Below are positions 14,389 through 29,185 of a stretch of DNA of 64,000 bases, piece by piece. Under the pieces are notes generated by a model, which had not been told where the DNA came from, searched no databases, and worked only from the letters and a program-made list of their open reading frames with translations. The stretch comes from Butyrivibrio sp. YAB3001 (lineage in GTDB: Bacteria > Bacillota > Clostridia > Lachnospirales > Lachnospiraceae): contig NZ_FOKR01000010.1 of assembly GCF_900112195.1 (NCBI RefSeq), positions 1 to 64,000 of the forward strand. The letters run 5' to 3'. Made by a program: the position numbers and the translations under genes. Every line of letters starts with the position of its first letter. The stretch's first letter is position 1.

Positions 14389-14405
14389 AGATAACTATAT
14401 CCCAA

Positions 14406-14540: not shown

Positions 14541-14561
14541 CAACTCATATGAATCCTTTCT

Positions 14562-15470
14562 TCATTTCCCACCGCCAGCAGTCAGCCCTCTGACAAAAAA
14601 TCTTCTAAAAAATGGGTAAACAATTATTATAGGCAGAATTATCAGACTGGCCAATGCCATTCTAAGTGACTGCGTAGGTACATCGCCCATAACAGCACCA
14701 CTTATGTTCTCATTAGATGTAATGTAAGACGCACTCTTTTCCATGTTGTACAAAATGTACTGCAGCATATACAGCTCGCTGTGCGCTGAATCCGTATAGA
14801 TGAGATTCTCGTACCAGCTATTCCAGTATGAAAAAGCTTCAAATATGCCAACGGTAAGTAATATAGGTCTCGACATTGGAAGAACAAACTGATAATACAG
14901 CCTGAATTCTGAAGCCCCTTCAAGTCTTGCAGCCTCCAAAATCTCCTCGGGAATATTCCTTAAGAAATACGTGCGCATGACGATGATATACCAGCTTGAA
15001 CAGGCTATGGGAAGTATCAGAGCAAGATAAGAATTCTTCAGGCCAAATAGCTGAGTATTGACCGCATAAGATGCCGCCAGACCACCACTGAAAAACATAG
15101 GAATCATGACACCAACTGTCAAAATATTTCTGTGCCTGTAGTATCTGTTACTGATTACATATGCCATGGTGCTTATCAGAAACAGGGACAGTATCGTACC
15201 CACTATGGTAACTGCGAAAGTTACCCCAAAAGCTCTTAAAATATTACCTGCATTTTTAAAAATATACAGATAAGCGCCGGCTGACCACTCTGAGGGCAAA
15301 AAGCTATACCCTTTTTCTACTATGGATTTCTCCGACGAAACTGATATAACAAGTATTAGTACAACAGGTAAAATCATGCAGGTTGAAAGCAGCAGCACAA
15401 GAATGCTGAGGACTGCATTAGCTCTTTTTCCAAGCCCCTTTATATATCCTCCGGATGTACTTTTGTTCAT
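14562..15470 (-). CDS. Carbohydrate ABC transporter permease (MalG/LplC type)
   Basis: 302 residues with six membrane segments and the inner-membrane permease EAA loop (EILEAARLEGASEFRLYYQFVLP). It ends in the short basic tail common to LplC/YtcP proteins (FVRGLTAGGGK). It forms the translocation pore with the partner permease, with which it overlaps by 4 bases (ATGA). No substrate-binding protein or ATPase is adjacent; such importers commonly share an MsmK-like ATPase encoded elsewhere, but a missing binding protein is unusual. Because the sequence upstream is scrambled, the original operon head may have been lost. Confidence 0.9.
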   Translation of the reverse strand: MNKSTSGGYIKGLGKRANAVLSILVLLLSTCMILPVVLILVISVSSEKSIVEKGYSFLPSEWSAGAYLYIFKNAGNILRAFGVTFAVTIVGTILSLFLISTMAYVISNRYYRHRNILTVGVMIPMFFSGGLAASYAVNTQLFGLKNSYLALILPIACSSWYIIVMRTYFLRNIPEEILEAARLEGASEFRLYYQFVLPMSRPILLTVGIFEAFSYWNSWYENLIYTDSAHSELYMLQYILYNMEKSASYITSNENISGAVMGDVPTQSLRMALASLIILPIIIVYPFFRRFFVRGLTAGGGK

Positions 15471-16402
15471 ATAGCGCCTCCCTCCGGACTGATAGCCTTA
15501 ACCATGCGGTTAGCGACAATAAGCAGCAGACAGCCGATTCCATTCTGTATAAGACTGGCTGCTGCTGAAAACCCGTAATTTGACTGTTCCATAAGTGCTT
15601 TATAGACAAATACGTCGATTGTCTCTGTAGTACTTAAGATTGAACCGGCATTTCGGGTAACCTGGTAGAAAAGGCCGAAGTCTGTGGAAAGTATATGCCC
15701 CAGATTGAGGAGCATCAGAACAACAACCATCGGCTTAAGCTGCGGAAGGATAACATACCTGATAACCTGCCTTACTGTCGCTCCATCTATCGCAGCACAG
15801 TCAAATAGAACGGAATCTATAGCACAGATAGTCGCATAATAGATAAGCATGGAATAACCTGATGTTTTCCATAGCTGCACGAGAACAAGGATAAATGGCC
15901 ATACCGCTGGTTTGAGATAGAAGTTTACCGACGACATTCCCAGATTTTCAAATACCGCATTTAACATCCCTTTGTCTGCCGAGAGAAAAGCATAGACAAA
16001 ATAGCTGACTATGACCCAGGACATAAAATGCGGAAGAAGCATGCATATCTGGACAATGGATCTCACCATACCCGAATGAAGATAGGATAGGATCACTGCT
16101 ATGGTAACAGGAACGACAATCCCCAAAATCAGAAATGCCAGGTTGTAAAGAAATGTATTTCGCACCACCCTCATCATCTGTGGATTCAGCATCAGAAAGC
16201 GGAAATTGGACAGCCCCACCCATTTGCTTCCAAAGAACAGGCTGTAGAAAAAGTTTCTCCCCGGAACAAGCTGATATCTCTTGAACGCAAGTACAATTCC
16301 AAATACCGGGAGATAGCAGAAGGCAATATACCAGATAATCGTAGGAAGGCAAAGAAGTGTAAGCTCAATATTTATTTTATTATTGCTTATCCTCTTTTTC
16401 AT
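15467..16402 (-). CDS. Carbohydrate ABC transporter permease (MalF/LplB type)
   Basis: 311 residues with six membrane segments. It opens with the LplB-like LPTIIWYIAFCYLPVFGIVLAFKRY and carries a CAAIDGATVRQVIRYVILPQL coupling loop. It pairs with the following LplC-type permease to import an oligosaccharide or similar compound. Its ATG lies inside the last codons of the preceding chimeric frame (23-base overlap), so it now depends on whatever transcript reads through 16380-17346. No cognate binding protein is visible in the window. Confidence 0.9.
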   Translation of the reverse strand: MKKRISNNKINIELTLLCLPTIIWYIAFCYLPVFGIVLAFKRYQLVPGRNFFYSLFFGSKWVGLSNFRFLMLNPQMMRVVRNTFLYNLAFLILGIVVPVTIAVILSYLHSGMVRSIVQICMLLPHFMSWVIVSYFVYAFLSADKGMLNAVFENLGMSSVNFYLKPAVWPFILVLVQLWKTSGYSMLIYYATICAIDSVLFDCAAIDGATVRQVIRYVILPQLKPMVVVLMLLNLGHILSTDFGLFYQVTRNAGSILSTTETIDVFVYKALMEQSNYGFSAAASLIQNGIGCLLLIVANRMVKAISPEGGAI

Positions 16403-16865
16403 ACAATTCCCTATACTGAGCGCAGCTCTTTAAAAGCTCATCATGAGTTCCTTCTGCCAGGATCTGTCCATCCTGCAGATACAGTGTCATATCCGAATCA
16501 CGGATACTGTCCACGTAATGTAAGGTGTTAACATCGTTTTCTGACAGTGAGAAAATGCCCTTGCCTATGATAGACATATATTTTGCGAATAAAAAGCAGT
16601 CAACCATATCATAAGAGTCATACTCTGCAGGCATAATACGGAAGAACTTCTTTATGCGCTCAAATGGATTATATACTACATTCTGCTGATTAAACCACGT
16701 GAAGAAGCCCGCTTGAAAACAATCATATGTTTCCGGGCGTCGATCAACATACATTTTCGATATTATAGGCGTTTTATCTGCTTCTTTAGAAAGAATAGGT
16801 GAATAAAGATAACTTATATTTGAAGTGTACACTTTCCCATATTTTTCAAAAGATCTATTCTGCAT
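16380..16865 (-). CDS. Chimeric frame ending in an ABC-exporter ATPase tail
   Basis: 161 residues made of two unrelated parts. The last 35-40 (SIRDSDMTLYLQDGQILAEGTHDELL..YRELYEKE) are the C-terminus of an MsbA/LmrA-type ABC exporter ATPase, just after the H-loop. The first 120 (e.g. YGKVYTSNISYLY and FERIKKFFRIMPAEYDSYD) match no family I recognise. There is no Walker A, Q-loop or signature motif, so it cannot be a working ATPase. It overlaps both neighbours by a few bases. It is most likely a deletion junction, although a new hybrid protein is possible. Confidence 0.4.
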   Translation of the reverse strand: MQNRSFEKYGKVYTSNISYLYSPILSKEADKTPIISKMYVDRRPETYDCFQAGFFTWFNQQNVVYNPFERIKKFFRIMPAEYDSYDMVDCFLFAKYMSIIGKGIFSLSENDVNTLHYVDSIRDSDMTLYLQDGQILAEGTHDELLKSCAQYRELYEKEDKQ

Positions 16866-17346
16866 TTACTCCACAAGCTGTGAATCTTCTGGCCCTGGCT
16901 GCAAGAAGCGATATATTTCGGATATAGAAAGGTCCTGTTTCAATATTCTTTTCGTTTCGGAATACAAAATTGACATCATTCTGTAAGCACCACGCCGACT
17001 GGCAGGCAACCTTCACATGATCCTTACTATCATCAGAACTGCAAAGATATGCAACACCTTGATATTCTTCTGTTCCGTCTTTATATTTTACCCATGCATT
17101 GAACAGAACCTTTGACTCCTTCCCTCCTATATAGACAGTGGTTTCCAAAGGATATTCACAGTACCACTCCACATCAGCTATCTTCTCGTCATCTGTAGAC
17201 ACCATCACAGCATCAAATAATTGACTATCCAGCGCCGCCTGAATTGAATATGCGATTATTGGCTTGCCGCAAAACTCTTTTATATTCTTGCCAGGAATCC
17301 TTTTGGAGCCGCCCCTTGCGGTAATAATAGCAACCGTTTTTACCAT
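16855..17346 (-). CDS. Truncated NeuA/PseF-like cytidylyltransferase with foreign C-terminus
   Basis: 163 residues. The first 60 are unmistakably an acylneuraminate cytidylyltransferase: AIITARGGSKRIPGKNIKEF is the CTP-binding loop, then KPIIAYSIQAALDSQLFD and VMVSTDDEKIADV. From residue 61 (EWYCEYPLETTVYIGG...) the sequence no longer follows the family, which normally runs to about 230 residues and has further catalytic Asp/Arg motifs. The second part is strand-rich and unrecognised. It lies 29 bases after the AstE-like gene. Probably an in-frame deletion product; sugar activation is doubtful. Confidence 0.55.
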   Translation of the reverse strand: MVKTVAIITARGGSKRIPGKNIKEFCGKPIIAYSIQAALDSQLFDAVMVSTDDEKIADVEWYCEYPLETTVYIGGKESKVLFNAWVKYKDGTEEYQGVAYLCSSDDSKDHVKVACQSAWCLQNDVNFVFRNEKNIETGPFYIRNISLLAARARRFTACGVNAE

Positions 17347-17375
17347 ATCATCTCAGTCCCCATCAATAGTACATC

Positions 17376-18296
17376 TCAAACCATCTTTATCACTGCTGTT
17401 TCCGCATATGTAATCGGGTCAGAATGCATAAAGAACAGCGTACCTCTTCTTGGCGCGTACAATGTTTCCATTACTGAACCATCATAGGGATTTATGATCT
17501 CAGCAAGAGGAGTCCCCTCATCCACACTGTCTCCCACTTTTACAAGCGGCTCAAATATGCCTGATTTTGCAGTTCTGACACTAATCAGCTCCTTATCACT
17601 TATAACTATTGACGGGTGATCACCATTTTCCTGGTATTTTACAAATCCAACGCTTTTGCAGAATCTAAGAATAGACAGCACTGCCTGACCGGCACTCTTT
17701 TTATCAATCCTACTTGTTGTAGATGTATAGAGGCTGTAAGCTTTTGTGTTCCACACCTGCCAGTTATAGTTCAGCGTTGCCGTATCATACGGTCTGACAG
17801 TTCTTTTTACAACGTAAGGCATTCCAAACTTCATTGCCGTTATAACATCAGAATATCCTTCATCCATTAGTCTCACATGTGGTATAAACTCACCCGGCAT
17901 GTAAAATGATGTAAACTGAATCCCATACTCGTAATCTTTTATCTGAGAAAAAATGCCGTCGGCAATTCTCTGGGTAGTCTCCCCTAGGTCATACCCTGGG
18001 AACATTCTGTTTATGTCAGTATTATCAATAGTCCAGAATCGCTTCTGCGTATTAATCGAATATGGGTTACAGCAGGGTATAATCAGAATTTTGACATCAG
18101 GACGAATTCGTCTTTCTTCCTCAAGCTGCCTGAATTTTTTAACAAGCTGGGAACAACAGTATAACTGCTGAACTTCATTTCCCCGCATGCTTCCGACAAT
18201 GCAGAGAGACTTTTTGCCCTTTCCAAATTCAAAACCTGTTATTCTGAAACTGTCTCTGTACAGCCCTTTGATCTCATAAATAATCTTCTTTTTCAT
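17376..18296 (-). CDS. AstE/aspartoacylase-like protein with degenerate zinc site
   Basis: 306 residues of the succinylglutamate desuccinylase/aspartoacylase (M14-related) fold with a C-terminal beta domain. The first zinc motif reads SMRGNE (R38, E41), with Arg in place of the His of HGxE, and the third-ligand position reads GIQFTS (about 126-130) instead of DxH. The substrate-binding NR is kept in DINRMFPG. Both histidines are therefore missing, so a metal-dependent hydrolase is unlikely; a regulatory or scaffold partner of the upstream paralogue is plausible. The start overlaps the upstream gene by 4 bases (ATGA), so the two are translationally coupled. Confidence 0.8.
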   Translation of the reverse strand: MKKKIIYEIKGLYRDSFRITGFEFGKGKKSLCIVGSMRGNEVQQLYCCSQLVKKFRQLEEERRIRPDVKILIIPCCNPYSINTQKRFWTIDNTDINRMFPGYDLGETTQRIADGIFSQIKDYEYGIQFTSFYMPGEFIPHVRLMDEGYSDVITAMKFGMPYVVKRTVRPYDTATLNYNWQVWNTKAYSLYTSTTSRIDKKSAGQAVLSILRFCKSVGFVKYQENGDHPSIVISDKELISVRTAKSGIFEPLVKVGDSVDEGTPLAEIINPYDGSVMETLYAPRRGTLFFMHSDPITYAETAVIKMV

Positions 18297-19240
18297 ACAG
18301 CCATGACTTCCTTTTTAAGCAGTCTGCCAATGAGCGATCCTTCATCAACAATCGGGTATTCTCTTATGGTAAAAAGAATTCCGTCTACAGGACTTTCAAC
18401 ATTTTGTAAAACCTGCCCGGAAAGCGGATCAATAATCCTCCCAATCCTGTCGCCCTTACAAAGCTTCTCCCAGTGCTTCACATCAGGGATAAAAAGCCCA
18501 CCTGATGCCGCATTGAGAAAACAGACATCTTCAGCATTCTCAGAAACAATAGGCTTTCTTGGTGCTTTCGTTTCTCCGGTCCACATTCCCATATAATGCA
18601 TTAGCCCCAGTATCCCATCCACAAGCTGGTCACCGTACTCTTTTGTTATACGCATCCCAACGCCCATCTCAACAACAAGGCATGGTGTTCCCGCATGGTT
18701 TAGGCTGTATGCAAACGTAGACTCAAGAACAGTACTTGCTTCATGTATCCAGACAAAATCAACATTGCAATGCTTTGCAAGTGGAACAAGTTCTTCTTTA
18801 TGGAGTCTGTTGATTCTTATTTGCGGAATCTCAGTAAGATAGATATTACTTGCATGTATATCCAGCACCACAGCGGATCCTGATACATCCTTTAAAATAT
18901 TTGCAGCAAGTAATTCTGTCATATTGCCTTCTGTATTTCCCGGAAATATCCTGTTCATATCAAGGTCAAAAGCTGGTATCCCTCGGATCACCGAGTCTAT
19001 CCCAAGTGGATTCATGGCAGGGTAGATGTCAACTATTCCCTTAAGGCACTTTTTGTTTTCCTCTATCTGCCTTGCAAGTTCAAAGCATACATACTGCCCT
19101 TCAAGCTCATCTCCGTGTATTCCTGTAACAATGCTTATTCGCTTCGGAACACTTTCAGAGCCATCCGGCAATATGCGTCTTTTTTTTATTCTTAAAACTT
19201 CATCAACTGGTAGTGCTACCTCTGCTACAGTTTTTATCAT
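18293..19240 (-). CDS. AstE/aspartoacylase-like metal-dependent deacylase
   Basis: 315 residues. The zinc site is complete: GIHGDE gives H42 and E45, and LDIHAS gives H129. DMNRIFPG holds the substrate-carboxylate-binding Asn-Arg (96-97). A beta-rich C-terminal domain (about 230-315) resembles that of succinylglutamate desuccinylases. Enzymes of this class hydrolyse N-acyl amino acids or related amides. It starts at a TGATG overlap with the transglutaminase-like gene and overlaps its inactive-looking paralogue downstream. In this operon a natural task would be removing or exchanging an acyl or amino-acid group on the ATP-grasp product; this is inference. Confidence 0.85.
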   Translation of the reverse strand: MIKTVAEVALPVDEVLRIKKRRILPDGSESVPKRISIVTGIHGDELEGQYVCFELARQIEENKKCLKGIVDIYPAMNPLGIDSVIRGIPAFDLDMNRIFPGNTEGNMTELLAANILKDVSGSAVVLDIHASNIYLTEIPQIRINRLHKEELVPLAKHCNVDFVWIHEASTVLESTFAYSLNHAGTPCLVVEMGVGMRITKEYGDQLVDGILGLMHYMGMWTGETKAPRKPIVSENAEDVCFLNAASGGLFIPDVKHWEKLCKGDRIGRIIDPLSGQVLQNVESPVDGILFTIREYPIVDEGSLIGRLLKKEVMAV

Positions 19241-20076
19241 CAGAACAATGCTCCTCTGCTTATGATGCTCTGTCCGGGGCTTATCTCAGATACATTCACA
19301 TATATATCCTGTGTCTGCTCTCCTCCCCCATGCATAATCCCTCTATTAATCTGGCACTCATTTGCATCCCTGCCACAGCCTATTTTTATGTGTGAGTCTT
19401 GCACCAGAATATTATTTGTCGGGTCAAGGCCATACCATTTTCCATCATCTATAACTTCCACCCATGCATGAGATTCACCCTCTCCTATGATGAGTCCGGT
19501 TACGTATCTGGCTGAACATCCTGACATATTAAGGAGTGAGATCATGATATGGGAATAATCCTGGCATACTCCCCTTCCAATCGAAAAAGCTTCCTCTGCC
19601 CCTGTATCGATTCCGGTACATCCTTTTTCATAAACCAGGTATTCATGAAGTTTTTCCATTATATGCTTTGCCTTATCAAGTGTTTTTTTCTCGTCAAAAG
19701 AAGGCATATCAGCCCTTATGGATTCCAAATATTCCCGTAGCCTTTCTCCTGGAACAGTAAGTCCATGACTATGCCTGTATATCATCTCTTCAGTTTCAGT
19801 TGAGGCAGATTCATGCGTCGCACATCCGCATTCTGCATCACCCTTAATGTGATATTTAAAATATGAATGCGGTATCTCATTGCTGCCATATATGTATCTG
19901 TTTCCGTGGGAATCGGTAGCCCATTCTGCTTTTGTTTCTGGTATCATATCGATCTTTATATTCGATATTTTCTGTCTGTCACTATCCTTTGGGATACACT
20001 TTATAGTGTAGCAGCACCATGAAACATCAGCAGAATAGCGGATTTCCATGCAATAATCAAAATGAAGTTTTTTCAC
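19240..20076 (-). CDS. Transglutaminase-like protein (bacterial N-terminal domain type)
   Basis: 278 residues. The N-terminal beta domain (about 1-90) is that of bacterial transglutaminase-like proteins; the papain-like core has Cys171 in GRGVCQDYSH, His203 in ESHAWVEV and Asp218 in YGLDPTN. It starts with GTG, supported by AAGGAT about nine bases upstream. This family is repeatedly encoded beside alpha-E and circularly permuted ATP-grasp proteins, as here, and is thought to hydrolyse or transfer amide bonds made by the ligase. There is no signal peptide, so the protein is probably cytoplasmic. The following AstE-like gene overlaps its stop. Confidence 0.9.
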   Translation of the reverse strand: MKKLHFDYCMEIRYSADVSWCCYTIKCIPKDSDRQKISNIKIDMIPETKAEWATDSHGNRYIYGSNEIPHSYFKYHIKGDAECGCATHESASTETEEMIYRHSHGLTVPGERLREYLESIRADMPSFDEKKTLDKAKHIMEKLHEYLVYEKGCTGIDTGAEEAFSIGRGVCQDYSHIMISLLNMSGCSARYVTGLIIGEGESHAWVEVIDDGKWYGLDPTNNILVQDSHIKIGCGRDANECQINRGIMHGGGEQTQDIYVNVSEISPGQSIISRGALF

Positions 20077-20095
20077 GACATCACATCCTTAACCC

Positions 20096-20761
20096 TTAGG
20101 CAATCAACGTCTCTACCATTCTTATCACACCGTAATAATCTACTTCCTGTTCTTCCACAGCCTTGCGGATTTCCTCGAGTCTGTCTTTTTTTATGTCCAT
20201 ACCGCTCTTTTCAATCCTTGGAATCATTCTGTTTGCCTCTCTTACCAGCACCTCTCTTCCAAGCCCCAGCCTTGCATAAAGATCGAATCTTTCAATCCTT
20301 TTTCCGGACTTGATTATGTTCCTTACGTGATCATCATCCAGCTTGTCATCTATCATTCCCCAAAACGCCAAAATGTCATCTATTACAAGCTGAAGCTCAA
20401 TGAGCGGTGCATCGCTAAGCTTTGCCTTGTTCATCTCATATATCGCAAGCTGTATATATGAAAGAGACTCTGAGCCAATGCTTTCCCTCAGCACAATGGC
20501 ATTATCATAGGCTCTGATGAGATTACTGATAATTGAGTCAGGATTATTCTCATCAAAGGGATAAGACTCCATAAAATCCTGCTTGTCCTTGTAAATATCC
20601 GGTATATCAATCATCTGGCAAAAATCATGATAGCTGTCACGGATTTCATCAATCATGGTGTCATAGCTTTTGAAATAACACCTAACCAACGTGTACACCC
20701 GCTCTGCATATCTTCCCAGCCAGTATAATCTGTTTGTCTGTTCTACTGAGATAATACCCAT
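20096..20761 (-). CDS. Alpha-E domain protein (DUF403)
   Basis: 221 residues, almost entirely helical. Family hallmarks: RLYWLGRYAERVYTL at the start, RAYDNAIVLRESIGSESL in the middle and NIIKSGKRIERFDLYARL towards the end. Many relatives are about 300 residues, so this is a compact version. Alpha-E proteins accompany circularly permuted ATP-grasp ligases and transglutaminase-like proteins in many bacteria; their biochemical role is not established. The gene overlaps the end of the ATP-grasp gene by 19 bases and lies 19 bases before the transglutaminase-like gene. Confidence 0.9.
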   Translation of the reverse strand: MGIISVEQTNRLYWLGRYAERVYTLVRCYFKSYDTMIDEIRDSYHDFCQMIDIPDIYKDKQDFMESYPFDENNPDSIISNLIRAYDNAIVLRESIGSESLSYIQLAIYEMNKAKLSDAPLIELQLVIDDILAFWGMIDDKLDDDHVRNIIKSGKRIERFDLYARLGLGREVLVREANRMIPRIEKSGMDIKKDRLEEIRKAVEEQEVDYYGVIRMVETLIA

Positions 20762-22062
20762 GTATCCTTAAACCCTCCTCCCTGTGAAGAATTTACAATG
20801 AATGAGTCAGGATTCCTTGAAAAACGCGTAAGACCACTTTTCCATACAAGTGGCTCATCTGCCATCAGCACAAATGCCCTGAGGTCTGCTTTTCTTGGAA
20901 CCATATCATCGCCTTCAAGAATATCCAGATCCTGGAAGTCGATGACTTCCTGTGCGATAAACCTTCTTGGCTCTGCCTTGAGAAGGCTTATAAAGCTCTC
21001 CTTCTGCTCCATTGTCATTGAACTGCCAAACACCACTCCATAGCCACCCGCTTCTGCCACATCCTTGAGTACCAAACTGTCAAACTTATCAAGCACATAT
21101 TTCATATCTTCTTCATAGAAGGGCAGATATGTCGGTGCATTCTGGAGTATTGGCTCTTCGCCCAGATAATAGCTGATCATTTTGGGGACGAAATAGTAAA
21201 TGCCTTTATCATCAGCAATACCATTGCCCGGTGCGTTTATCAGGGCAACGTTGCCTTTCCTGAAAACATCATAGATATGAGGAATTCCTATGACAGACTC
21301 GGGGTTGAAATTCATAGGATCAAGGTATTCATCAGAGATTCTTCTGTAAACAGCCCCGACTCTCTCATGCTTTCCATCAGCAGTTATAAAGTATAGCTTG
21401 TCATTTTCCACGATCAGCTCAGAACCGTTGGCAAGATGCGCTCCCGTCTGCTCAGCAAGATAAGAATGTTCAAAATATGCAGCATTATATCTTCCGGGTG
21501 TTAGGATAACTGTGTGTCCCCCGACATTCACATTATCCATAGTCCGCCTTAGGAGCTTTGCATAATTTCGGTTGTCTTCAAGCCTGACATCATTGAATGT
21601 TCCGGGTGAACTCCTTCTACAGAGCTCCCTGGCTATCATGGGATACGAAGCTCCTGAAGGAACACGCAGGTTGTCCTCCAATATATACCACTGCCCGTCT
21701 TTACCTTTTACAAGGTCGATTCCTGATATGTGGGAATAGATTCCTTTTACCGGGCAAACTCCCTCGCACTCAACCATATAACCACTGGAAGCAAAGATAA
21801 AATCCTCAGGCACAACGCCGTCCTTTACAATCTTCTTGCCACTGTATATATCCTTAAGAAAAAGATTCAATGCAGTAACACGCTGTTTTAGCCCCTTTTC
21901 AAGGTATTCAAATTCATCGTGTTCTATAACCCTTGGTATGGCGTCAAAGGGAAAAAGCTGCTCCTTAAACTCATTATTCTTATAGATTCCAAATTTCACT
22001 CCATACCTTGCCAGCAGTGCATTGACATCATCTGTATGTTTTAGCAGGTTTACATTGTTCAT
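20743..22062 (-). CDS. Circularly permuted ATP-grasp ligase (CP_ATPgrasp)
   Basis: 439 residues. Signature segments of the circularly permuted ATP-grasp family are all present: ILEDNLRVPSGASY (127-140), LTPGRYNAAYFEHS (187-200), VYRRISDEYLDP (about 238-249), GNGIADDKGIYYFVP (279-293) and the C-terminal NSSQGGGFKDTWVL. Comparative genomics predicts that such proteins form amide or peptide bonds using ATP. ATG 22062 has AAAGGAA upstream and lies 35 bases inside the FUSC gene, so translation is coupled. The substrate is unknown; the adjoining amino-acid importer suggests an amino acid is one of them. Confidence 0.92.
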   Translation of the reverse strand: MNNVNLLKHTDDVNALLARYGVKFGIYKNNEFKEQLFPFDAIPRVIEHDEFEYLEKGLKQRVTALNLFLKDIYSGKKIVKDGVVPEDFIFASSGYMVECEGVCPVKGIYSHISGIDLVKGKDGQWYILEDNLRVPSGASYPMIARELCRRSSPGTFNDVRLEDNRNYAKLLRRTMDNVNVGGHTVILTPGRYNAAYFEHSYLAEQTGAHLANGSELIVENDKLYFITADGKHERVGAVYRRISDEYLDPMNFNPESVIGIPHIYDVFRKGNVALINAPGNGIADDKGIYYFVPKMISYYLGEEPILQNAPTYLPFYEEDMKYVLDKFDSLVLKDVAEAGGYGVVFGSSMTMEQKESFISLLKAEPRRFIAQEVIDFQDLDILEGDDMVPRKADLRAFVLMADEPLVWKSGLTRFSRNPDSFIVNSSQGGGFKDTWVLSQ

Positions 22063-22600
22063 AGGCAGTTTCCTTTTTCTCTTCGATATTTTCTAACTCT
22101 TCCATTTTCTTCATATATCTGTAATTCAAAGCAAGTCCAAGCATAATTCCTATTAAGGTATCCAGAGATCTGTTAGCAACGAATATGTATGGGTTTTCAT
22201 CCATAAGATGATTTACGACTATGCTCAGAAAAACAACACATGAAAAATATGATGCTTTCTTCTGCTTTATAACAACAGTTGTATATATTATGGGAATCAA
22301 TGCTATTGATATGATGCAGTAATGAAGAAAGCTATCACCAAGTTGCGGGACTCTTTGTTTTATCAAGATATATATCAGCCCATATGCAGCTCCTATGCCC
22401 GTCCCAACTGTCCTTTGAAGCGCATTTTGAACTGTGTTTTTTGTCTGGTTCTGTATGCACCATAAAACTGCCAGTGCTGAATAAAACGGTGCTCCCTGTT
22501 TTCCCCTCATGAAATAAATAGCAAAGCAGATAAGCACTCCTAATGCTGATTTTATAATCCGCATCCCTATATGCGGAACATGTACCATGCCCTTTTCCAT
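22028..22600 (-). CDS. FUSC / aromatic-acid-exporter-type membrane protein
   Basis: 190 residues with about five or six hydrophobic segments in the first 160 and a charged cytoplasmic tail. The pattern GAPFYSALAVLWCIQNQTKNTVQNALQR with GTGIGAA is that of the ArAE/FUSC N-terminal membrane half; the soluble half is absent. Relatives are proposed to export small acids or to act as membrane anchors. It starts 3 bases after the kinase-like gene stops and overlaps the ATP-grasp gene by 35 bases. In this operon export of the ligase product is the simplest idea, untested. Confidence 0.75.
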   Translation of the reverse strand: MEKGMVHVPHIGMRIIKSALGVLICFAIYFMRGKQGAPFYSALAVLWCIQNQTKNTVQNALQRTVGTGIGAAYGLIYILIKQRVPQLGDSFLHYCIISIALIPIIYTTVVIKQKKASYFSCVVFLSIVVNHLMDENPYIFVANRSLDTLIGIMLGLALNYRYMKKMEELENIEEKKETAYEQCKPAKTYR

Positions 22601-22603
22601 ATA

Positions 22604-22897
22604 TCAGTCAAAAACACTCCTCACAACTCCACACAGAATATCGGCGCTTGTATCAGCTCCAAACTTTCCGGAATCTATGCATATATCTCTGTTGTCAAAG
22701 ATTCCTGCTATATCCTTACAATATTTACGCCTGTAATTCTCGCGGGCTTTATCGACATCCTGTATCATTCCCCTTGCAGTATGTTCAACAATATCCCTGT
22801 CATAAAATTCTATTCCCAGTTCAGCGGCCATCTTCTGAGCTATTGTTCTTCCCATCGCGCCAAACTGTCTGGAGATCGTAATTACATATTTATCCAT
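22604..22897 (-). CDS. Cytidylate kinase-like protein, internally deleted
   Basis: 97 residues. The first 40 fit the cytidylate-kinase-like family (YVITISRQFGAMGRTIAQKM, then IEFYDRDIVE) and the last 45 fit its end (RENYRRKYCKDI, then DICIDSGKFGADTSADIL). Family members are about 200 residues; the middle, including the NMP-binding and LID parts, is missing and the join lies near residues 40-50. Even the P-loop is atypical (FGAMGRT). It overlaps the upstream permease stop by 8 bases and is read in the same operon. Catalysis is unlikely. Confidence 0.65.
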   Translation of the reverse strand: MDKYVITISRQFGAMGRTIAQKMAAELGIEFYDRDIVEHTARGMIQDVDKARENYRRKYCKDIAGIFDNRDICIDSGKFGADTSADILCGVVRSVFD

Positions 22898-23696
22898 TGT
22901 AGGCCCATCCTGTCTGCCTTCTCTCCTCCAAAACCGGAGTTTTTTTCACTTTTACAGTCATTTTCTTTTTCTGCAGATTCCTTACTGTCATGGAAATCGA
23001 AAAATTGATCACAAAGTAAATGGTTGCAGCAAGACCAAACAGTACAAATACGTCAGATACATTTATCGAATTAAGTCCGTTATACCTGTTAGCTGCTGAC
23101 AAAACCTGCTTGGTCCTTGCCATAAGCTCAATAACTGCAACATTTGCAAGAAATGAGCTGTCCTTGATAGTTGTTATAACCTGGCTTAAAAGTGTAGGGA
23201 CAATTGCTCTGAATGTCTGAGGCAGCACAATATACCACATGATCTGAAGCATGGAAAATCCCTGCGATTGCCCAGCTTCAATCTGTCCATGAGAAACGGA
23301 ATTCAATCCGCCCCTCACTATTTCGGCAATAACACCTGATGTATATAAAATAAGCGCCACAGCAGCCTTAAACAAAAGCTTGTTGTTTACTGAAGAAAGA
23401 CCGAACATCTGCCTGTCTACAAATCCCGGTGCAGGACAGAATACAACACATATGAAGATCCAGAATAACAACGGTGTGTTTCTGAACACTTCTATGTATA
23501 TTACGGAAAGAGCCTTCAGTACTCCTGTCTGTTTACCTGTACAATAATTCCTCATAAGTGCCAGTACAGTTCCTATCACTATACTGAAAAGTACTGCAGC
23601 AACAGATATTATCAGTGTAAAGAGCACCCCCTGAAGTATGAATTTTATAATTGCCGGATTTCTCAGCATTGAAAGGCTGCCATCCAATGTGTTCAT
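22890..23696 (-). CDS. Polar amino-acid ABC transporter permease (HisM/GlnP family)
   Basis: 268 residues with five or six membrane segments and the permease signature ELVRGGxxSVxxGQxEAG-like loop (IAEIVRGGLNSVSHGQIEAGQSQG) followed by VLPQTFRAIVP. ATG 23696 has GGAGG upstream. Together with the next permease, the binding protein and the ATPase it makes a complete polar amino-acid importer. The last codons overlap the kinase-like gene, tying the transporter to the ligase genes downstream on one transcript. Confidence 0.92.
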   Translation of the reverse strand: MNTLDGSLSMLRNPAIIKFILQGVLFTLIISVAAVLFSIVIGTVLALMRNYCTGKQTGVLKALSVIYIEVFRNTPLLFWIFICVVFCPAPGFVDRQMFGLSSVNNKLLFKAAVALILYTSGVIAEIVRGGLNSVSHGQIEAGQSQGFSMLQIMWYIVLPQTFRAIVPTLLSQVITTIKDSSFLANVAVIELMARTKQVLSAANRYNGLNSINVSDVFVLFGLAATIYFVINFSISMTVRNLQKKKMTVKVKKTPVLEERRQTGWAYNG

Positions 23697-23697
23697 A

Positions 23698-24414
23698 TCA
23701 CGCCTCCTTTGGTGTGCCGTTCTGGAATACTTTCTGATCCCTCTTCTTTAATGATGTCTCCCACATCGATGCAAAGGATGAAAGAGGGAAACAGATCAGG
23801 AAGAATATTACTCCACATACGATATATGCTGGAGCATACGAGCCACCTGTGTTTTCTCCTGTAACAAAGCTATACGTAAGCGATAAAAGATCTGCTCCAC
23901 CCACTATGTATAAACAGGAAGTATTTTTAATCATGTTCACAATTACATTTGTCATCGGTGGCAAAATCACTTTTATACTCTGTGGGATTATGATGTAAAA
24001 CATCTGTCCTGCATACCCAAATCCCTGGGACTGGGCTGCTTCGAACTGGCCCTTCGGCACCGACTCTATCCCTGCCCTTATAACTTCTGCCATGTATGCT
24101 CCGGTATATATACCAAGTGCCAGGAATCCAGTGACTATAATTCCAGGACTGTGACCAGAAAAAGCCAGTGCATAGTATAGAAAGCACATCTGTAAAAGGA
24201 CCGGTGTATTCTGAATCACCTCAACATACACTCTGCTGATACTCTTCAGTATTTTTCTATTACTTGTTGCCATAAGTCCAAATATGATTCCAAGCAAAAG
24301 AGCTATCAGGAGCGCCACCACGGCTGTTTTCAATGTATTTGCAAGCCCGAGGAGGAATGTCCCCCGATAAATCCATATTTTATTCCATGCTCTTGGTGAG
24401 AATAATCCAGACAT
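23698..24414 (-). CDS. Polar amino-acid ABC transporter permease (HisQ/GlnP family)
   Basis: 238 residues with the same architecture as its neighbour: AEVIRAGIESVPKGQFEAAQSQGFG is the EAA-type coupling loop, followed by IIPQSIKVILPP. GGAGG lies about ten bases before the ATG. It stops one base before the partner permease starts and begins 17 bases after the binding-protein gene. It should form a heterodimeric channel with the 22890-23696 product. Confidence 0.92.
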   Translation of the reverse strand: MSGLFSPRAWNKIWIYRGTFLLGLANTLKTAVVALLIALLLGIIFGLMATSNRKILKSISRVYVEVIQNTPVLLQMCFLYYALAFSGHSPGIIVTGFLALGIYTGAYMAEVIRAGIESVPKGQFEAAQSQGFGYAGQMFYIIIPQSIKVILPPMTNVIVNMIKNTSCLYIVGGADLLSLTYSFVTGENTGGSYAPAYIVCGVIFFLICFPLSSFASMWETSLKKRDQKVFQNGTPKEA

Positions 24415-24431
24415 TGCCGGTCCTCCGTTAC

Positions 24432-25334
24432 TTAATCAAGTCCATTTTCTGAAACAAGTTTAGCAATTGTTCCGTTATCAAAGCTCTCGGTTACAAGATC
24501 CTCTGCAACCTTTGAAAGGCCTGATTCCTTCGTGGTTGCGATACCATAATTCTGTGGTGAGAACTCTGCATCGATATAAGATCTTCCCTCTGTCTTGTAT
24601 ATAGCAAGTATGGACTTATCGACACAGAACGCATCAACTTCACCGGCACTAAGTGCTGTAGAGATTGTTGGATAATCATCATACTGCTGGAACTTTATAC
24701 CATCAGTCCAGGTGGCCGGATCAAAGCTTTCTTCATCAAAGCCATCACCACTTATAAGACCTTTTTCAATCATTGCTTTTACAAGAGCCTTAGCTGATGT
24801 TGATCCGGAAGAGACACCTACAGTTGCATCAGCCAAATCATCAAGTGTCTTAATTCCTTTTGAATCCTCAACAAGAACGCTTACATAATCTGTATAGTAC
24901 GGTGTCGTAAAATCCCAGCTCTCTTTTCTTTCATCAGTGATTGTGAATGTAGCGAGTACACAATCAATATCTCCTGAATCAAGAAGCTCAGTTCTCGTTG
25001 CAGCTGTTACGGCTGTAAACTCCACATCAACTCCAAGCTTACCTGCCAGAGCTTTTGCAAGTTCAATTTCCATTCCTGTATACTCACCTGTCAGCGGATC
25101 TTCATAGCCGAAGCCAACTACCGCATTCTTAACGCCAACCTTCAGGACACCTCTATCAACAATTGCCTGTACATCCGCTGCCACACTTTCATCGGCTGGC
25201 GCTGCTGCCAAAGGTGTCTCCTGGGAAGCCTCTGTTATCTCTGTTACTTCTGGTGGCTCTGAAGCACTTCCACAGGCAACAAGCATCGCCCCCATGATCC
25301 CCGCTACCACTGTGCTTAATAATCTTCTCTTCAT
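24432..25334 (-). CDS. Amino-acid ABC transporter substrate-binding lipoprotein
   Basis: 300 residues. The lipoprotein signal ends AMLVACGS; after an acidic linker the family-3 solute-binding fold starts at IVDRGVLKVGVK (about residue 60). TFTITDERKESWDFTTPYYTD is typical of glutamine/glutamate and other polar amino-acid receptors, and SSGSTSAKAL marks the second lobe. The ligand cannot be called from these motifs. GAGGAGG precedes the ATG. The protein is anchored outside the membrane and feeds the two permeases encoded just downstream. Confidence 0.92.
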   Translation of the reverse strand: MKRRLLSTVVAGIMGAMLVACGSASEPPEVTEITEASQETPLAAAPADESVAADVQAIVDRGVLKVGVKNAVVGFGYEDPLTGEYTGMEIELAKALAGKLGVDVEFTAVTAATRTELLDSGDIDCVLATFTITDERKESWDFTTPYYTDYVSVLVEDSKGIKTLDDLADATVGVSSGSTSAKALVKAMIEKGLISGDGFDEESFDPATWTDGIKFQQYDDYPTISTALSAGEVDAFCVDKSILAIYKTEGRSYIDAEFSPQNYGIATTKESGLSKVAEDLVTESFDNGTIAKLVSENGLD

Positions 25335-25394
25335 AATTTTTTCCTCCTCGTTTTGTCTATAGACAGTACAGATAAAATACTCTGTACATTGTCA

Positions 25395-26123
25395 TCATCT
25401 GATTATCTTTCCCAAAAACTGTTTAACTCTCTCGCTCTCTGGGTTATTGAAGAAATGTTCCGGCGTTCCCGATTCTATGATCTGCCCGTCTTCCATGAAT
25501 ATCACCCTATCAGCCACCTGCCTTGCAAATCCCATCTCATGTGTTACTACAACCATCGTTATGTTCTCTTTTGCAAGTTTTATCATTACATCAAGTACTT
25601 CCTGAATTGTCTCGGGATCAAGCGCTGATGTTGGCTCATCAAACAAAATGATCTTACTCTGTGAGCAAAGAGCCCTGGCAATTGCTATTCTCTGTTGTTG
25701 TCCCCCGGAAAGTGTCGTCGGATATACATCTGCTTTATCCTTTAATCCCACGATATCCAGATAATGGTATGCCAGCTCATCAGCTTCTTTCTTGGTTTTA
25801 TGATGAAGCTTCATAGGTGCAAGTGTAAGGTTTTTAAGAACAGTCATATGTGGATAGAGATTAAACTGCTGGAATACCATCGAAGTACTTTCGCGAACCA
25901 CTTTGGTTTTATTCTTTGAAGTCAACTCAGTCCCGTCTATATAAACATGTCCACTACTTGGTGCCTCCAGAAAATTCATGCAGCGAACTGTTGTGGATTT
26001 TCCTGATCCGGACGGACCAATAATTACCAATTTTTCTCCCTCTTCAACCTCAAGATTCACATCTTTTAATACGTGAAGATCCCCAAAGCTTTTATTTACA
26101 TTTTCCAGCTTGATCATTGCCAT
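25395..26123 (-). CDS. Polar amino-acid ABC transporter ATPase (GlnQ/HisP family)
   Basis: 242 residues. Walker [11 protein letters not shown]-loop [17 protein letters not shown], signature LSGGQQQR, Walker [12 protein letters not shown] and the H-loop THEMGFAR are all intact. It is the first gene of the long operon; its start is placed by AAAGGAAAA upstream of ATG 26123. The leader before it is about 250 bases long and rich in hairpins. A gap of 60 bases separates it from the binding protein. It energises uptake by the two permeases. Confidence 0.93.
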
Positions 26124-26146
26124 AGCTTATTTTTCCTTTCTCTATT

Positions 26147-26285
26147 CGAATGTCGCCCGCGACATTCGTGCACCGAGCGCGGTTGCATTTATGCAACTAT
26201 TTCCTATCGCGCGAGTGTGCATCCATGCGGAGTATTTGGCCTTTAGGACAAAAGATGGCGCTCCGGTATCAAGCCGAAACGCCAT
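26147..26285 (-). promoter_or_regulatory. Structured 5' leader of the importer/ligase operon
   Basis: Three hairpins on the minus strand. A perfect 10-bp one at 26147-26168 (CGAATGTCGC / GCGACATTCG, 2-base loop) lies just upstream of the ribosome binding site. A 7-bp one at 26182-26197 (GTTGCAT / ATGCAAC) is next. A third at 26255-26285 has outer arms ATGGCG/CGCCAT and inner CGG/CCG. The third shares GGCGTTT at its 5' side and CGGAGCGCC at its 3' side with the terminator-like hairpin at 26336-26374. It matches no riboswitch class I can name. Confidence 0.5.
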
Positions 26286-26321
26286 TGTCTCATTGCACTT
26301 ATATAGGATTAGTTATAATGA

Positions 26322-26374
26322 AAAAGAATAAAAGAAAAGGCGCTCCGAAACACTGTGTGAATCAAAACGCCTTT
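26322..26374 (-). terminator. Terminator-like hairpin directly behind the operon promoter
   Basis: On the minus strand AAAGGCG ... CGCCTTT (arms 26368-26374 and 26336-26342) with an inner CAC/GTG pair, followed by a T-rich run (TTTTCTTTTATTC). It begins only a few bases after the predicted transcription start, so it could act as an attenuator. It could also end plus-strand transcription. Confidence 0.5.
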
Positions 26375-26385
26375 GTTTGTATACA

Positions 26386-26413
26386 AGTATACGGTTTGTA
26401 TTTATTTTGACAA
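26386..26413 (-). promoter_or_regulatory. Promoter of the importer/ATP-grasp operon
   Basis: Minus-strand TTGTCA (26408-26413), 16-base spacer, TATACT (26386-26391). The -10 is embedded in a palindromic stretch, GTATACTTGTATAC, which could bind a dimeric repressor of GntR type. Confidence 0.55.
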
Positions 26414-26459
26414 TTGCCATTTTATACAAAAATTTTGCGACAATATCCTGATCTTATCA

Positions 26460-27026
26460 TTATTTTTGCCAAATCAAAGCTCCTGACAATGTTTCACAAA
26501 CTCCCTGAATATCAGCAAAATGCTGTTTAACAGCCTTACTTATATTAACTTCCCTAAATGATGCACCTATCTCTTTTATGAGCCTTACTGCATTTTCATA
26601 TGTCCTGTCTGTAGTACCAAAGCCCGGCATTGTGACTGCTATAATTCCATTTCGATTGAAGGTCAGATAGTCAAAGGCCTTTGCAATAACAAGAAATGCA
26701 AGTGTCGAGTCAAGGCCGCCTGATATACCAATGACTGCTGTCTTACATCCGATATGATCAAGTCTTTTTCTTAATCCCATTGCCTGTATGGTAAGGATCT
26801 CATTACATCGCATGTCGCGTTCCTGTCCCAAAGCAGGTACAAACGGATTGGGATCAATATATCTTGTCAGTTCTGCATGTTCCTTATTCAGTGAGAATAC
26901 CACGCGGGTATACTTGACGCTGGAGTCTGCCTCATATGTTGTCATACGTCTTCTTTCAGCTTCAAGATATTCCAGATCAATCTCTGATACGATCATATTT
27001 TCAGAGAAACGTTCCGATTCACACAA
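26460..27026 (-). pseudogene. nadE: NAD+ synthetase (glutamine-dependent) internal fragment
   Basis: 188 codons covering the junction of the two NadE domains. The first part is the end of the nitrilase-type glutaminase domain (IVSEIDLEYLEAERRR), the second the start of the synthetase domain with the PP-loop ISGGLDSTLA. Full enzymes are about 640 residues; here about 250 are missing at the front and more than 300 at the back. The homologous reading (YDGNVLCESERF) continues a few codons upstream into the end of the RelA-like gene without a proper start. It cannot make NAD. A working nadE must be elsewhere. Confidence 0.8.
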
Positions 27027-27043
27027 AACATTTCCATCATATT

Positions 27044-28033
27044 TTAATCTATAATGTCATTCTGAAACCTTGACAGATGCTCATATGGCAAGATAAGCCT
27101 TCCCCTGTATAATCCACATCCGTCATTTACAAGTTGATTGTTTACCGCCCCAAACATATTTACATCAACCTTGGCCAGATCAAGCCCCTGCAACAGCATT
27201 CCCCTCTCATAAGCCTCATCAAAATAAGTGCATTCCCCCGAAGGTACTGCATCCCTACGGCTTCTCTCTTTATCCTGTCTCTTCTCATATCCAAGGTGAT
27301 GTGCCGGTCCTATCTCAGCATAATCATCCATCTGTTTGGTACGCATCTGCACTTCAAGGTAAGACCTGGACTGATTATCATAGAAGGTAATGTGAAGAGA
27401 TTTATATCCATAGGGACTAGGATTCTTTATATAGTCCCTGTAATATGGCCTTAATGATTCTGTTATCATCTCAGAAGGTTCTTTCCCTGGTATTCCATAG
27501 ATTTCTGACGTAAAGCCTTTCTCTTCCAGAAACCCCGGAAGCGCATTGGCAATCTCGTAGAGATACTTAAGTTCTATCTCCTCTCGTTTTTCACCATCCT
27601 TAAGGTGACAGACAGGCATGGATATAACTATGCGATAAGCAATAAGATCACGTATGGGACCAATCTGTTGTTTAAGCTCTGTGATACTTGGGAAAGAAGT
27701 GTTTTTCTCATAGTAATCATATACATGTTCTACTATGTTTCCATTGAATTTCTGTTCCGCTCTTATAAGCGATTTGATTCTTCCCTTAAAAGTAAACGCT
27801 AGAAAAGGGTATTCACTTGACATATATTTGTAAAATTCCCTGAGTCGCTGGGACTGAGAAGTAAGGAAATCATTATGTTCAAGAAGTTCCATCAGCTGCA
27901 AAAGGAAATTACAGTGAATCATATCCATACCATTTTGTGTCTTTTTAGCATCTTCTTTCAAATCATTGTGATATCTCTGCAGAATCTTTAAGACTGTGTC
28001 CCCTGAATACAGGTAATCATTCAATGTAATCAT
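27044..28033 (-). CDS. RelA/SpoT-domain protein, (p)ppGpp-synthetase-like
   Basis: 329 residues from ATG 28033, chosen because GGGAGG lies ten bases upstream; an earlier ATG includes that site within its codons. RelA/SpoT nucleotidyltransferase segments are visible: FKGRIKSLIRAEQKF, RDLIAYRIV, SPYGYKSLHITF, and LEVQMRTKQMDDYAEIGPAHH. The N-terminal 80 residues are helical and there is no HD hydrolase or TGS/ACT domain, so it resembles a stand-alone small alarmone synthetase or a related toxin-like enzyme. The end abuts a broken nadE. A strong hairpin terminator lies upstream, so it should have its own control. Confidence 0.75.
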   Translation of the reverse strand: MITLNDYLYSGDTVLKILQRYHNDLKEDAKKTQNGMDMIHCNFLLQLMELLEHNDFLTSQSQRLREFYKYMSSEYPFLAFTFKGRIKSLIRAEQKFNGNIVEHVYDYYEKNTSFPSITELKQQIGPIRDLIAYRIVISMPVCHLKDGEKREEIELKYLYEIANALPGFLEEKGFTSEIYGIPGKEPSEMITESLRPYYRDYIKNPSPYGYKSLHITFYDNQSRSYLEVQMRTKQMDDYAEIGPAHHLGYEKRQDKERSRRDAVPSGECTYFDEAYERGMLLQGLDLAKVDVNMFGAVNNQLVNDGCGLYRGRLILPYEHLSRFQNDIID

Positions 28034-28069
28034 TCCCCAGATCCTCCCTTTCATAAATCTTACCTAACA

Positions 28070-28111
28070 GAAAAAGGCAAAGACACCATCATCTCTGAAA
28101 GCGTCTTTGCC
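28070..28111 (-). terminator. Intrinsic terminator / leader hairpin upstream of RelA-like gene
   Basis: Arms GGCAAAGAC (28076-28084) and GTCTTTGCC (28103-28111) pair perfectly with an 18-base loop, followed on the minus strand by TTTTT. It separates the GNAT fragment from the RelA-like gene, whose ATG is about 40 bases downstream; attenuation is also possible. Confidence 0.7.
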
Positions 28112-28188
28112 TCTAACCAATATAATATCACAATTATATACATCATCATGCAAGAAATATACAGATTGTTAAGATATTTGTAAGCATT

Positions 28189-28380
28189 TTATACTACTGG
28201 AAGTATATTGTTTTCTTTCCCTTCTTCCTCAAAAACAAACCTGCAATTCTTTACGTGACCTTCATTCCACTCAGTAAAACTAGGACACTCTGTATTAAAA
28301 GTTGATGTTCCCTCTTCTAATCCCTGCTTGTAAATCTCTGATATTGACCCCCAGTCTTCATCTCTCATTTCTCTAATCAC
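28189..28380 (-). pseudogene. GNAT acetyltransferase N-terminal fragment
   Basis: 63 residues starting at GTG 28380 with a strong GGAGGT eight bases upstream. MIREMRDEDWGSISEIYKQG, followed by EEGTSTFNTECPSF and HVKNCRFVF, is the beginning of a phosphinothricin-type GNAT acetyltransferase. The acetyl-CoA-binding half is gone: after EEEGKEN the frame runs only a few codons to a stop. The start overlaps the stop of an upstream MarR fragment, so the two were a coupled regulator-enzyme pair. Not functional as it stands. Confidence 0.7.
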
Positions 28381-28598
28381 AGCATTCCACCTCCGATTTT
28401 TTTATCGCATCATTATAGATATTTAATGCCTCTAAAACCTGACTCTGTTTTTCCTTTGGAATCATTGAAAAAACTCTCTCAAACTTCAAATTCATATCTT
28501 TTTCTATTGTATTGAATCTTGCCATTCCTTCATCAGTCAGATTAAGCACTACACACCTGCGATCCCTTTTCGAAGCGGAGTCTGTGAGGGTAGTTCAT
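28373..28598 (-). pseudogene. MarR-family regulator C-terminal fragment
   Basis: About 75 codons without a start: DSASKRDRRCVVLNLTDEG is the MarR wing (the beta hairpin DxRD..R..L.LT..G), followed by the C-terminal dimerisation helix. The helix-turn-helix is missing; the frame is closed upstream by a stop close to the end of the MazF gene. The stop TAG overlaps the GTG of the acetyltransferase fragment. The break point near 28595 may mark where the toxin-antitoxin module joined. Confidence 0.7.
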
Positions 28599-28604
28599 TC
28601 ATTT

Positions 28605-28910
28605 TCAGATGTAGTCAAAGATTCCTTGAATAGCGTCTGTGATATTTATAATGTCATGATAATGTATCCTATCAATCATCGAATAACCCCTGATATTTAA
28701 ATCAAGGAGTGCCATTTTTTCGCATTGCACATAACCCTCTACATCTTCAGTTTTGATATGTATATGTAATGGTCCTGCTTCCCCTTTTTCAAAAATAGGA
28801 CAGCCGATTATTTCAAAGGTCTGATTAAAGAAATCCTTACTCACAATAAGAACCGGTTTCTTGATATGTTCAATCTTAAGTATATCCCCCTGATGCAATT
28901 CTTCCTTCAT
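28605..28910 (-). CDS. mazF: MazF/PemK-family toxin (mRNA interferase)
   Basis: 101 residues from ATG 28910, which overlaps the antitoxin stop as ATGA. The SH3-like PemK/MazF barrel is recognisable: LHQGDILKIE at the start (with G where the RGDI arginine usually stands), KKPVLIVSKDFFNQ, VQCEKMALLD with the conserved Q and D, and the C-terminal helix. Family members cleave mRNA at short motifs. The changed residue near the active-site loop could alter cleavage. It is expressed with the AbrB-type antitoxin encoded just upstream. Confidence 0.85.
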   Translation of the reverse strand: MKEELHQGDILKIEHIKKPVLIVSKDFFNQTFEIIGCPIFEKGEAGPLHIHIKTEDVEGYVQCEKMALLDLNIRGYSMIDRIHYHDIINITDAIQGIFDYI

Positions 28911-29152: not shown

Positions 29153-29170
29153 AAGCAATACCTCCTTTGT

Positions 29171-29185
29171 ATATACATTGTATAT
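29171..29185 (-). promoter_or_regulatory. Palindromic operator of mazEF
   Basis: ATATACA-T-TGTATAT, a perfect palindrome 19-33 bases upstream of the mazE start and next to its GGAGG. The position suits autorepression by the MazE dimer or MazEF complex; TATACA within it could also be the -10 element. Confidence 0.55.

Follow-up and report, generated by a model that had tools for sequence, protein, structure and literature searches.

A conserved five-gene core with paired AstE-like proteins, and its importer module, in a Butyrivibrio operon

The gene cluster and its five-gene core

The cluster described here lies in a 64,000-nucleotide stretch of Butyrivibrio sp. YAB3001 (contig NZ_FOKR01000010.1, positions 1 to 64,000; hereafter the window), where eleven open reading frames (ORFs) follow one another in tandem on the minus strand between 17376 and 26123. 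The inter-gene gaps are, in transcription order, 60, 17, 1, -8, 3, -35, -19, 19, -1 and -4 bases, and the operon, which would be read as a single transcript, consists of two modules. The first holds an amino-acid importer, a kinase-like gene and a FUSC-type membrane protein, and the second is a core of five genes encoding a circularly permuted (CP) ATP-grasp ligase, an alpha-E protein, a transglutaminase-like enzyme and two AstE-like proteins, AstE1 and AstE2 (Table 1). An earlier sequence-only reading had listed ten or eleven co-directional, tightly spaced genes of these families; eleven were found, and Pfam agrees with its assignments gene by gene, from ABC_tran to AstE_AspA_cat twice.

To follow the core in other genomes, the best 80 of 588 confirmed relatives in GTDB genomes were taken as the set of closest loci, and gene order was scored by tblastn in the 72 that could be assessed, the other 8 being set aside because their downstream sequence was too short. 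The order ATP-grasp, alpha-E, transglutaminase-like, AstE1, AstE2 on one strand was found in 71 of these 72 loci, the single exception (L086) having no match to either AstE protein, which rules out chance as the source of the arrangement. The upstream neighbours of the core vary among the closest loci. In an even sample of 294 genomes of the order, the ligase was detected in 34 (G255 and G326 with fragments only, so that 32 genomes were used for whole-genome tests). Ligase and AstE2 occurred together in 32 genomes, ligase only in 2, AstE2 only in 13 and neither in 247 (p 6e-30), although kinship among genomes of the order makes this and the other p-value given below overstate independence. The description of the first three genes (hereafter the trio) as a known predicted amide-forming unit, given by the sequence-only reading, holds, with the addition that here the trio is tightly joined to the two AstE-like genes. 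The five-gene core is a variant of this trio, which has itself been known from sequence for years. Our literature search recognised no paper describing the trio with an AstE pair, and an earlier mention is possible, notably in the 2009 paper by Iyer.

Conservation extends to the residues of the encoded proteins. The ATP-grasp protein, which shares 99% identity with its counterpart in Butyrivibrio sp. XPD2006 (locus L007), gave a mean column identity of 89% over 15 aligned rows, and residues E20-R21 of the alpha-E protein were invariant in 17 rows. A search of solved structures with the alpha-E profile found no convincing relative (best E 0.5). In the transglutaminase-like enzyme the Cys-His-Asp triad (C171, H203, D218) was kept in all 67 rows, which represent the window plus 66 of the 80 closest loci. 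Two contigs labelled as Treponema, from horse faeces bins (L012, L013), carry Lachnospirales-like ligase genes at 89-90% identity, by mis-binning or transfer. In G255, a frame of 125 codons (G255:C24:26720-27052) joins the start of an ATP-grasp gene (model positions 2-81) to the end of AstE2 (its last 31 positions); it has the appearance of a remnant left when the operon was deleted, and an AstE pair survives on another G255 contig.

Table 1. Genes of the operon in the window, and the PurL-type neighbours of AstE pairs elsewhere
Feature	Position	Strand	Evidence
Module 1: polar amino-acid importer ATPase, 242 aa	25395..26123	-	ABC_tran E 4.3e-37
Module 1: substrate-binding lipoprotein, 300 aa, predicted Asp/Glu binder	24432..25334	-	SBP_bac_3; best PDB match 2v25 PEB1a
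Module 1: importer permease A	23698..24414	-	BPD_transp_1 E 2.1e-23
Module 1: importer permease B	22890..23696	-	BPD_transp_1 E 1.3e-16
Module 1: cytidylate-kinase-like remnant, 97 aa	22604..22897	-	Cytidylate_kin2, partial, two stretches
Module 1: FUSC/ArAE_1-type membrane domain, 190 aa	22028..22600	-	FUSC_2 E 6e-13
Core 1: CP type 2 ATP-grasp ligase, 439 aa	20743..22062	-	CP_ATPgrasp_2 E 1.6e-133; 3n6x E 4.2e-110
Core 2: alpha-E protein, short form, 221 aa	20096..20761	-	Alpha-E E 1.8e-20, model positions 7-164 of 294
Core 3: transglutaminase-like cysteine enzyme	19240..20076	-	Transglut_core E 4.3e-17, with Bact_transglu_N
Core 4: AstE1, metal amidohydrolase with complete catalytic residues	18293..19240	-	AstE_AspA_cat E 5.4e-24
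Core 5: AstE2, conserved pseudoenzyme by residues	17376..18296	-	AstE_AspA_cat E 2.2e-9
PurL-type neighbour of ligase-free AstE pairs	L151-L154, L157, L158 (G258, G268, G306, G272, G255, G286)		Pfam on L152 only; others 72-89% identical

A terminator-like stem of 12 pairs (26285-26255) stands between an upstream NAD-synthase fragment and the importer ATPase gene, and from 26.1 to 17.4 kb the minus-strand listing has just one more such site, a hairpin of 5 pairs within the ATP-grasp gene (20936). The scan returned 8 sites in the scanned stretch against a shuffle mean of 6.7, so these sites constitute weak evidence. No riboswitch or other RNA leader was detected at E 0.5 in positions 14000-30000 of the window, which has no tRNA, and a search of six related loci for RNAs gave one tRNA and nothing more. 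Further upstream is a RelA/SpoT-like gene (27044-28054), relatives of which also occur close to the ligase at a small number of other loci (L021, L033, L161). Downstream, the stretches 16855-17346 and 16380-16865 hold an N-terminal piece of a NeuA-like CTP_transf_3 protein (55 of 217 model positions) and an ORF with no Pfam match, whose C-terminus resembles by eye the end of an ABC ATPase; both appear, in part by eye, to be further decay beside the operon.

AstE1 and its paralogue AstE2

Residues of the two AstE proteins were counted in two overlapping alignments, with the window in both (72 and 46 rows for AstE1, 73 and 42 for AstE2). AstE1 keeps H42, E45, H129 and E191 in every row of both sets, that is, by their roles in the aspartoacylase literature, the metal ligands (H-x2-E ... 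H) and the catalytic Glu. By contrast, AstE2 has Arg (R38) for the first His in 73/73 and 42/42 rows, and the catalytic Glu is replaced at Y190 by Tyr in 72 and Phe in 1 of the 73 rows and by Tyr in all 42. The second His is also replaced, and the residue opposite it depends on the alignment method. One MAFFT setting places residue 127 there (Gln in 73/73 rows; Gln in 38 and His in 4 of the 42), and another, in agreement with the HMMER alignment of AstE2 to 2qj8, places residue 129 there (Thr 49, Ala 21 and Ser 3 of 73; Thr, Ala, Ser, Pro or Val overall, and never His, in the 42-row set). Residues E41, N96 and R97 do not vary in either set, and the last two form an Asn-Arg motif that contacts the substrate in the AstE/AspA family; AstE2 still belongs to the family by profile (AstE_AspA_cat 37.6 bits, cut-off 25). 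Because the first His and the catalytic Glu are lost in every row, AstE2 is, judged by its residues, a conserved pseudoenzyme. The second-His question alters the evolutionary detail and leaves this call as it is. The "deacylase pair" of the sequence-only reading must therefore be amended, as only AstE1 is residue-complete.

AstE1 lies directly upstream of AstE2 in 39 of 41 distinct cases, and in the two exceptions (G193, G267) the AstE2 ORF call extends far upstream, where AstE1-like matches are present. The same five genes are also adjacent in two genomes (G620, G599) of f79, another family in the phylum, and both AstE2 copies there still have the HGDE and DVH motifs and carry Met for the catalytic Glu. 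A tree of 34 sequences separated AstE1 from AstE2, f79 copies included, at 100/99 support, with a warning from the tool about long branches, which argues for a duplication older than the two sampled lineages. The simplest history suggested by the two f79 genomes would be an old duplication followed by loss of the general base and then of the metal site. Four AstE2 copies with His127 had been considered as intermediates of His loss and were dropped, since the second alignment puts residue 129 opposite the second metal His; the order of losses is thus supported by the f79 copies only.

The importer module and its deletions

The best match of the binding protein in the Protein Data Bank (PDB) was PEB1a (E 7.5e-41). 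The related GlnH is described as holding Asp through Ser164, Arg169 and Asp250, and its side chain through Arg147, Trp232 and Thr162 (PMC6069109). By spacing and the PEB1a alignment, rather than by a direct alignment to GlnH, these positions fall on T131, R136, D239, R114 and T129, Trp232 being unmatched. In an importer family alignment of 9 rows, T129, T131, R136 and D239 were kept in all 9 and R114 in 8 (His in one). The likeness to PEB1a and the apparently preserved acidic-pocket residues point to Asp or Glu as the predicted ligand, and uptake of a polar amino acid, as first proposed from the sequence, agrees with the Asp/Glu-binding character of the closest solved relative.

In the even sample, where presence of the importer was defined by the binding protein at E<1e-70, it was found in 10 of 294 genomes, 7 of which also have the ligase (Fisher p 1.4e-5). 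It lies 2.2-3.4 kb from the core in five genomes of three genera (G000, G304, G263, G160, G312), importer and ligase are on separate contigs in two (G024, G128), and two carry the importer with no ligase (G071, G187). The tenth, G280 (L156), combines the importer with a 97-aa transglutaminase piece and the AstE pair; ligase and alpha-E are gone and one permease is cut to 192 aa. A separate arrangement is seen in L054, where the same importer type stands downstream of the core and not upstream. In a further sample of 61 relatives (importer threshold E<1e-30), the ligase was found in 5 genomes, all of the window's genus, with the importer adjacent in 2, elsewhere in 1 and not detected at that threshold in 2, and four more genomes of the genus had the importer with no ligase. 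The association is thus specific from the side of the importer and optional from the side of the ligase. Judged by the refutation that the sequence-only reading had set out, rare adjacency, the link is genuine yet not obligatory: five of the ten importer genomes place the importer no more than 3.5 kb from the core, and one further genome (G280) has it beside the AstE pair and the transglutaminase piece, but only 5 of the 34 ligase genomes show the adjacency.

A cytidylate-kinase-like gene follows the importer permeases in four inspected loci away from the ligase (L186, L187, L188 and L189, the last also with FUSC), indicating that the kinase-like remnant belongs to the importer module. Such a gene was also seen behind a different importer type in L058, L061 and L085. 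In L007 this protein has 197 aa (Cytidylate_kin2 at 5-177), and the FUSC protein has 436 aa (FUSC plus Hydrolase_3). Comparison of the junctions with L007, a near-identical Butyrivibrio, revealed that deletions in the window have removed half of the kinase-like gene and, from FUSC, the C-terminal half, a HAD-like domain in many relatives. The deletions measure about 300, 740, 740 and 760 bases and affect the kinase-like gene, the FUSC C-terminus and, twice, an NAD synthase gene (22028-22897 and 26460-27037). Two of the junctions have direct repeats (9 bases, exact; 14 bases, 12 matching), and the lengths of the deletions in the kinase-like gene and in FUSC are divisible by three.

Thirteen of the 32 ligase-positive genomes have a FUSC relative, which in nine of them lies no more than 7 kb from the core (on the other strand in G263). 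Four of these nine copies, that of the window included, match approximately the first 160 residues only, in frames of 182-210 codons; the short form may thus remain functional as a membrane protein. Its role as an exporter, as proposed by the sequence-only reading, is a guess from the family name. In the FUSC plus HAD-like form (L007:8725-10035), the HAD profile match starts at model position 16, and by eye most of eight copies have Gly for the nucleophile Asp; this domain may therefore be inactive too.

A possible amide cycle, its rivals and known systems

Our preferred reading, which remains tentative and falls somewhat short of an even chance, is that the five-gene core carries out an amide-bond cycle on Asp or Glu, with AstE2 as a dead partner, the importer as an optional addition and storage as its role. 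The ATP-grasp ligase would use ATP to couple a carboxylate, most likely that of Asp or Glu, to an amine, with the alpha-E protein as its accessory, and the transglutaminase-like cysteine enzyme would transfer or trim the product. AstE1, a Zn-type amidohydrolase, would split the product, and AstE2, as a dead paralogue keeping the Asn-Arg motif, may be its non-catalytic partner, either a binding or a regulatory subunit. Placing a predicted acidic amino-acid importer in front, as in the window, would have uptake and use co-expressed. The product would most likely be a small Asp/Glu isopeptide serving as a store of nitrogen or amino acids; a nitrogen-linked amide of this kind is favoured because of the importer pocket, the substrates of AstE relatives and the nitrogen regulation of the trio elsewhere. 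In a more specific version, which we consider speculative and rather unlikely, the core would be an undescribed amide cycle of gut and rumen Lachnospirales, cyanophycin-like and run by other enzymes, in which an isopeptide store made by the ATP-grasp ligase is mobilised by a heteromeric AstE1/AstE2 whose second subunit died in at least two steps, the pair serving other amides where the ligase is missing.

Several observations weigh against an amide cycle. The literature search returned no product, substrate or activity for any core gene in these bacteria. Among the PDB relatives of AstE1 that score well, those with a specific named activity deacetylate N-acetyl-diaminobutyrate and are not isopeptidases, and the cyanophycin synthetase CphA1 (TIGR02068) was over cut-off in none of the 32 ligase-positive genomes. 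All 32 gave matches below the cut-off, the best covering about model positions 463-850 in 29, which we took for Mur-ligase-type proteins. The ligase is absent from 13 of the 45 AstE2-positive genomes of the order, so the AstE pair is not tied to the ligase and its substrate need not come from it. Thirteen ligase-free AstE loci were inspected (11 of these 13 genomes, without G193 and G282, plus copies in G255 and G286), and no substitute ligase was recognised near the pair. Neighbours differ among these loci apart from a PurL-type gene that immediately follows the pair in six of them, which an amide store leaves unexplained; this gene may reflect a shared chromosomal position, for which there is no proof. 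Finally, among the best 80 loci, 11 have isocitrate dehydrogenase and 8 have citrate synthase no further than 8 kb from the core, but in the even sample isocitrate dehydrogenase stands beside the core in 0 of the 24 ligase-positive genomes (of 32) that have it. Glutamate-supply genes were accordingly dropped as general evidence. Other neighbours (Peptidase_C26, GATase, ArgD-like with Fe-ADH, radical SAM with SecDF, a Cys/Met PLP enzyme) occur at few loci each and form no joint pathway.

The AstE pair and the importer may instead serve catabolism, importing N-acyl amino acids or dipeptides of the rumen and hydrolysing them, with the trio a mere frequent neighbour. The genomes with AstE2 and no ligase would agree with such scavenging, as would G280, which retains importer and AstE pair after losing ligase, alpha-E and most of the transglutaminase gene. 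The cut permease suggests, however, that G280 may be a case of simple decay, and the presence of AstE2 in 32 of 34 ligase-positive genomes, the fixed order of the five genes and a binding protein of the amino-acid family SBP_bac_3 make this explanation rather unlikely. That the importer stands beside the ligase by an accident of the clade, and is uninformative on the substrate, is also unlikely. It would account for adjacency in so few ligase-positive genomes (5 of 34, and 2 of 5 in the 61-genome sample), for the separate contigs of G024 and G128 and for the ligase-free importers of G071 and G187, yet five of ten importer genomes, from three genera, carry it close to the core, and L054 has the same importer type in an arrangement of its own.

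The trio could also attach an amino acid or peptide to proteins, with AstE1 removing this tag. Protein tagging is one published proposal for the trio, with Anbu as the de-tagging or degrading enzyme (PMC6376114, PMC5666114), and the AstE pair could stand in for Anbu (PF00227), which was over cut-off in none of the 32 ligase-positive genomes (one match below it, in G270; controls positive in 10 of 14). We regard it as quite unlikely, since the substrates described for characterised AstE relatives are small N-acyl amino acids or dipeptides, and trios with no adjoining AstE (L196-L199) indicate that a fixed de-tagging partner is not general. AstE2 might likewise still be an enzyme with a changed mechanism, using another metal or an Arg. 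Its site is clearly under selection, as R38, E41, N96 and R97 do not vary and the larger set has Gln at residue 127 throughout. The loss of the first His and the general-base Glu in all rows of both sets, together with the f79 copies, which lost the Glu and kept both His, is more in line with a lost function than with a new mechanism and renders an active AstE2 very improbable.

The core offers a handle on the trio, for which the papers examined name no product: this compact gut version comes with a fixed hydrolase and its dead twin, and the compound that AstE1 hydrolyses may be what the ligase makes, or something closely similar. The graded loss of catalytic residues in AstE2 provides a natural series in which the conversion of a subunit into a pseudoenzyme can be followed, and the function of the core would matter for how Lachnospiraceae of the rumen and gut handle nitrogen.

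Among known systems, the Anbu operon, described as CP ATP-grasp, alpha-E, transglutaminase-like and Anbu (Iyer 2009, Valas and Bourne 2008, as cited in PMC5666114 and PMC6376114), shares with the core its first three proteins, adjacent here too and with the transglutaminase active-site residues intact. It differs in that the AstE1/AstE2 pair here takes the fourth and fifth places instead of Anbu, and in that alpha-E is of a short form (158 of 294 model positions). The ATP-grasp enzyme of the Yersinia Anbu operon is reported to release Pi from ATP (PMC6376114). Elsewhere in the phylum, four genomes of other families carry the trio with no AstE relative next to it (L196-L199; two belong to one genus, and in one alpha-E is fused to the transglutaminase), Anbu not having been searched there; the idea that AstE replaces Anbu is thus half supported, by the absence of Anbu in the tested genomes of the order.

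The binding protein is akin to PEB1a and GlnH in sequence and apparently in its acidic-ligand residues, and differs in setting by the cytidylate-kinase-like gene behind the permeases, as also in L186-L189. With the AstE/AspA (M14-like) deacylases the core shares the metal site and catalytic Glu of AstE1 and the family membership of both AstE proteins by profile, whereas its second copy is a pseudoenzyme by residues and no ectoine genes were seen in the operon. The nearest solved relatives with a specific named activity are DoeB/EutE (6twl, 6twm), from which AstE1 is far (54.6 bits, cut-off 402.7); these enzymes are described as freeing amino acids from N-acyl forms (PMC5924519). Enzymes annotated in the AstE/AspA family can also be isoaspartyl dipeptidases, which cut beta-Asp-Arg/Lys in cyanophycin breakdown (PMC10206079). 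The cyanophycin cycle (CphA1, cyanophycinase and isoaspartyl dipeptidases including the AstE-like family) differs from the operon, which is not a member of it, in that the ligase here is a CP type 2 ATP-grasp. The analogy would lie in ATP-driven, Asp-based amide synthesis coupled to an AstE-type hydrolase, and further in the nitrogen link of the trio in other bacteria: it is reported in the NtrC/sigma54 regulon of Burkholderia (PMC5491218), a CP ATP-grasp gene of P. putida is among candidate nitrogen-sensitive genes, up on nitrate relative to ammonium (PMC8050072), and the Anbu literature describes expression under nitrogen starvation (PMC6376114).

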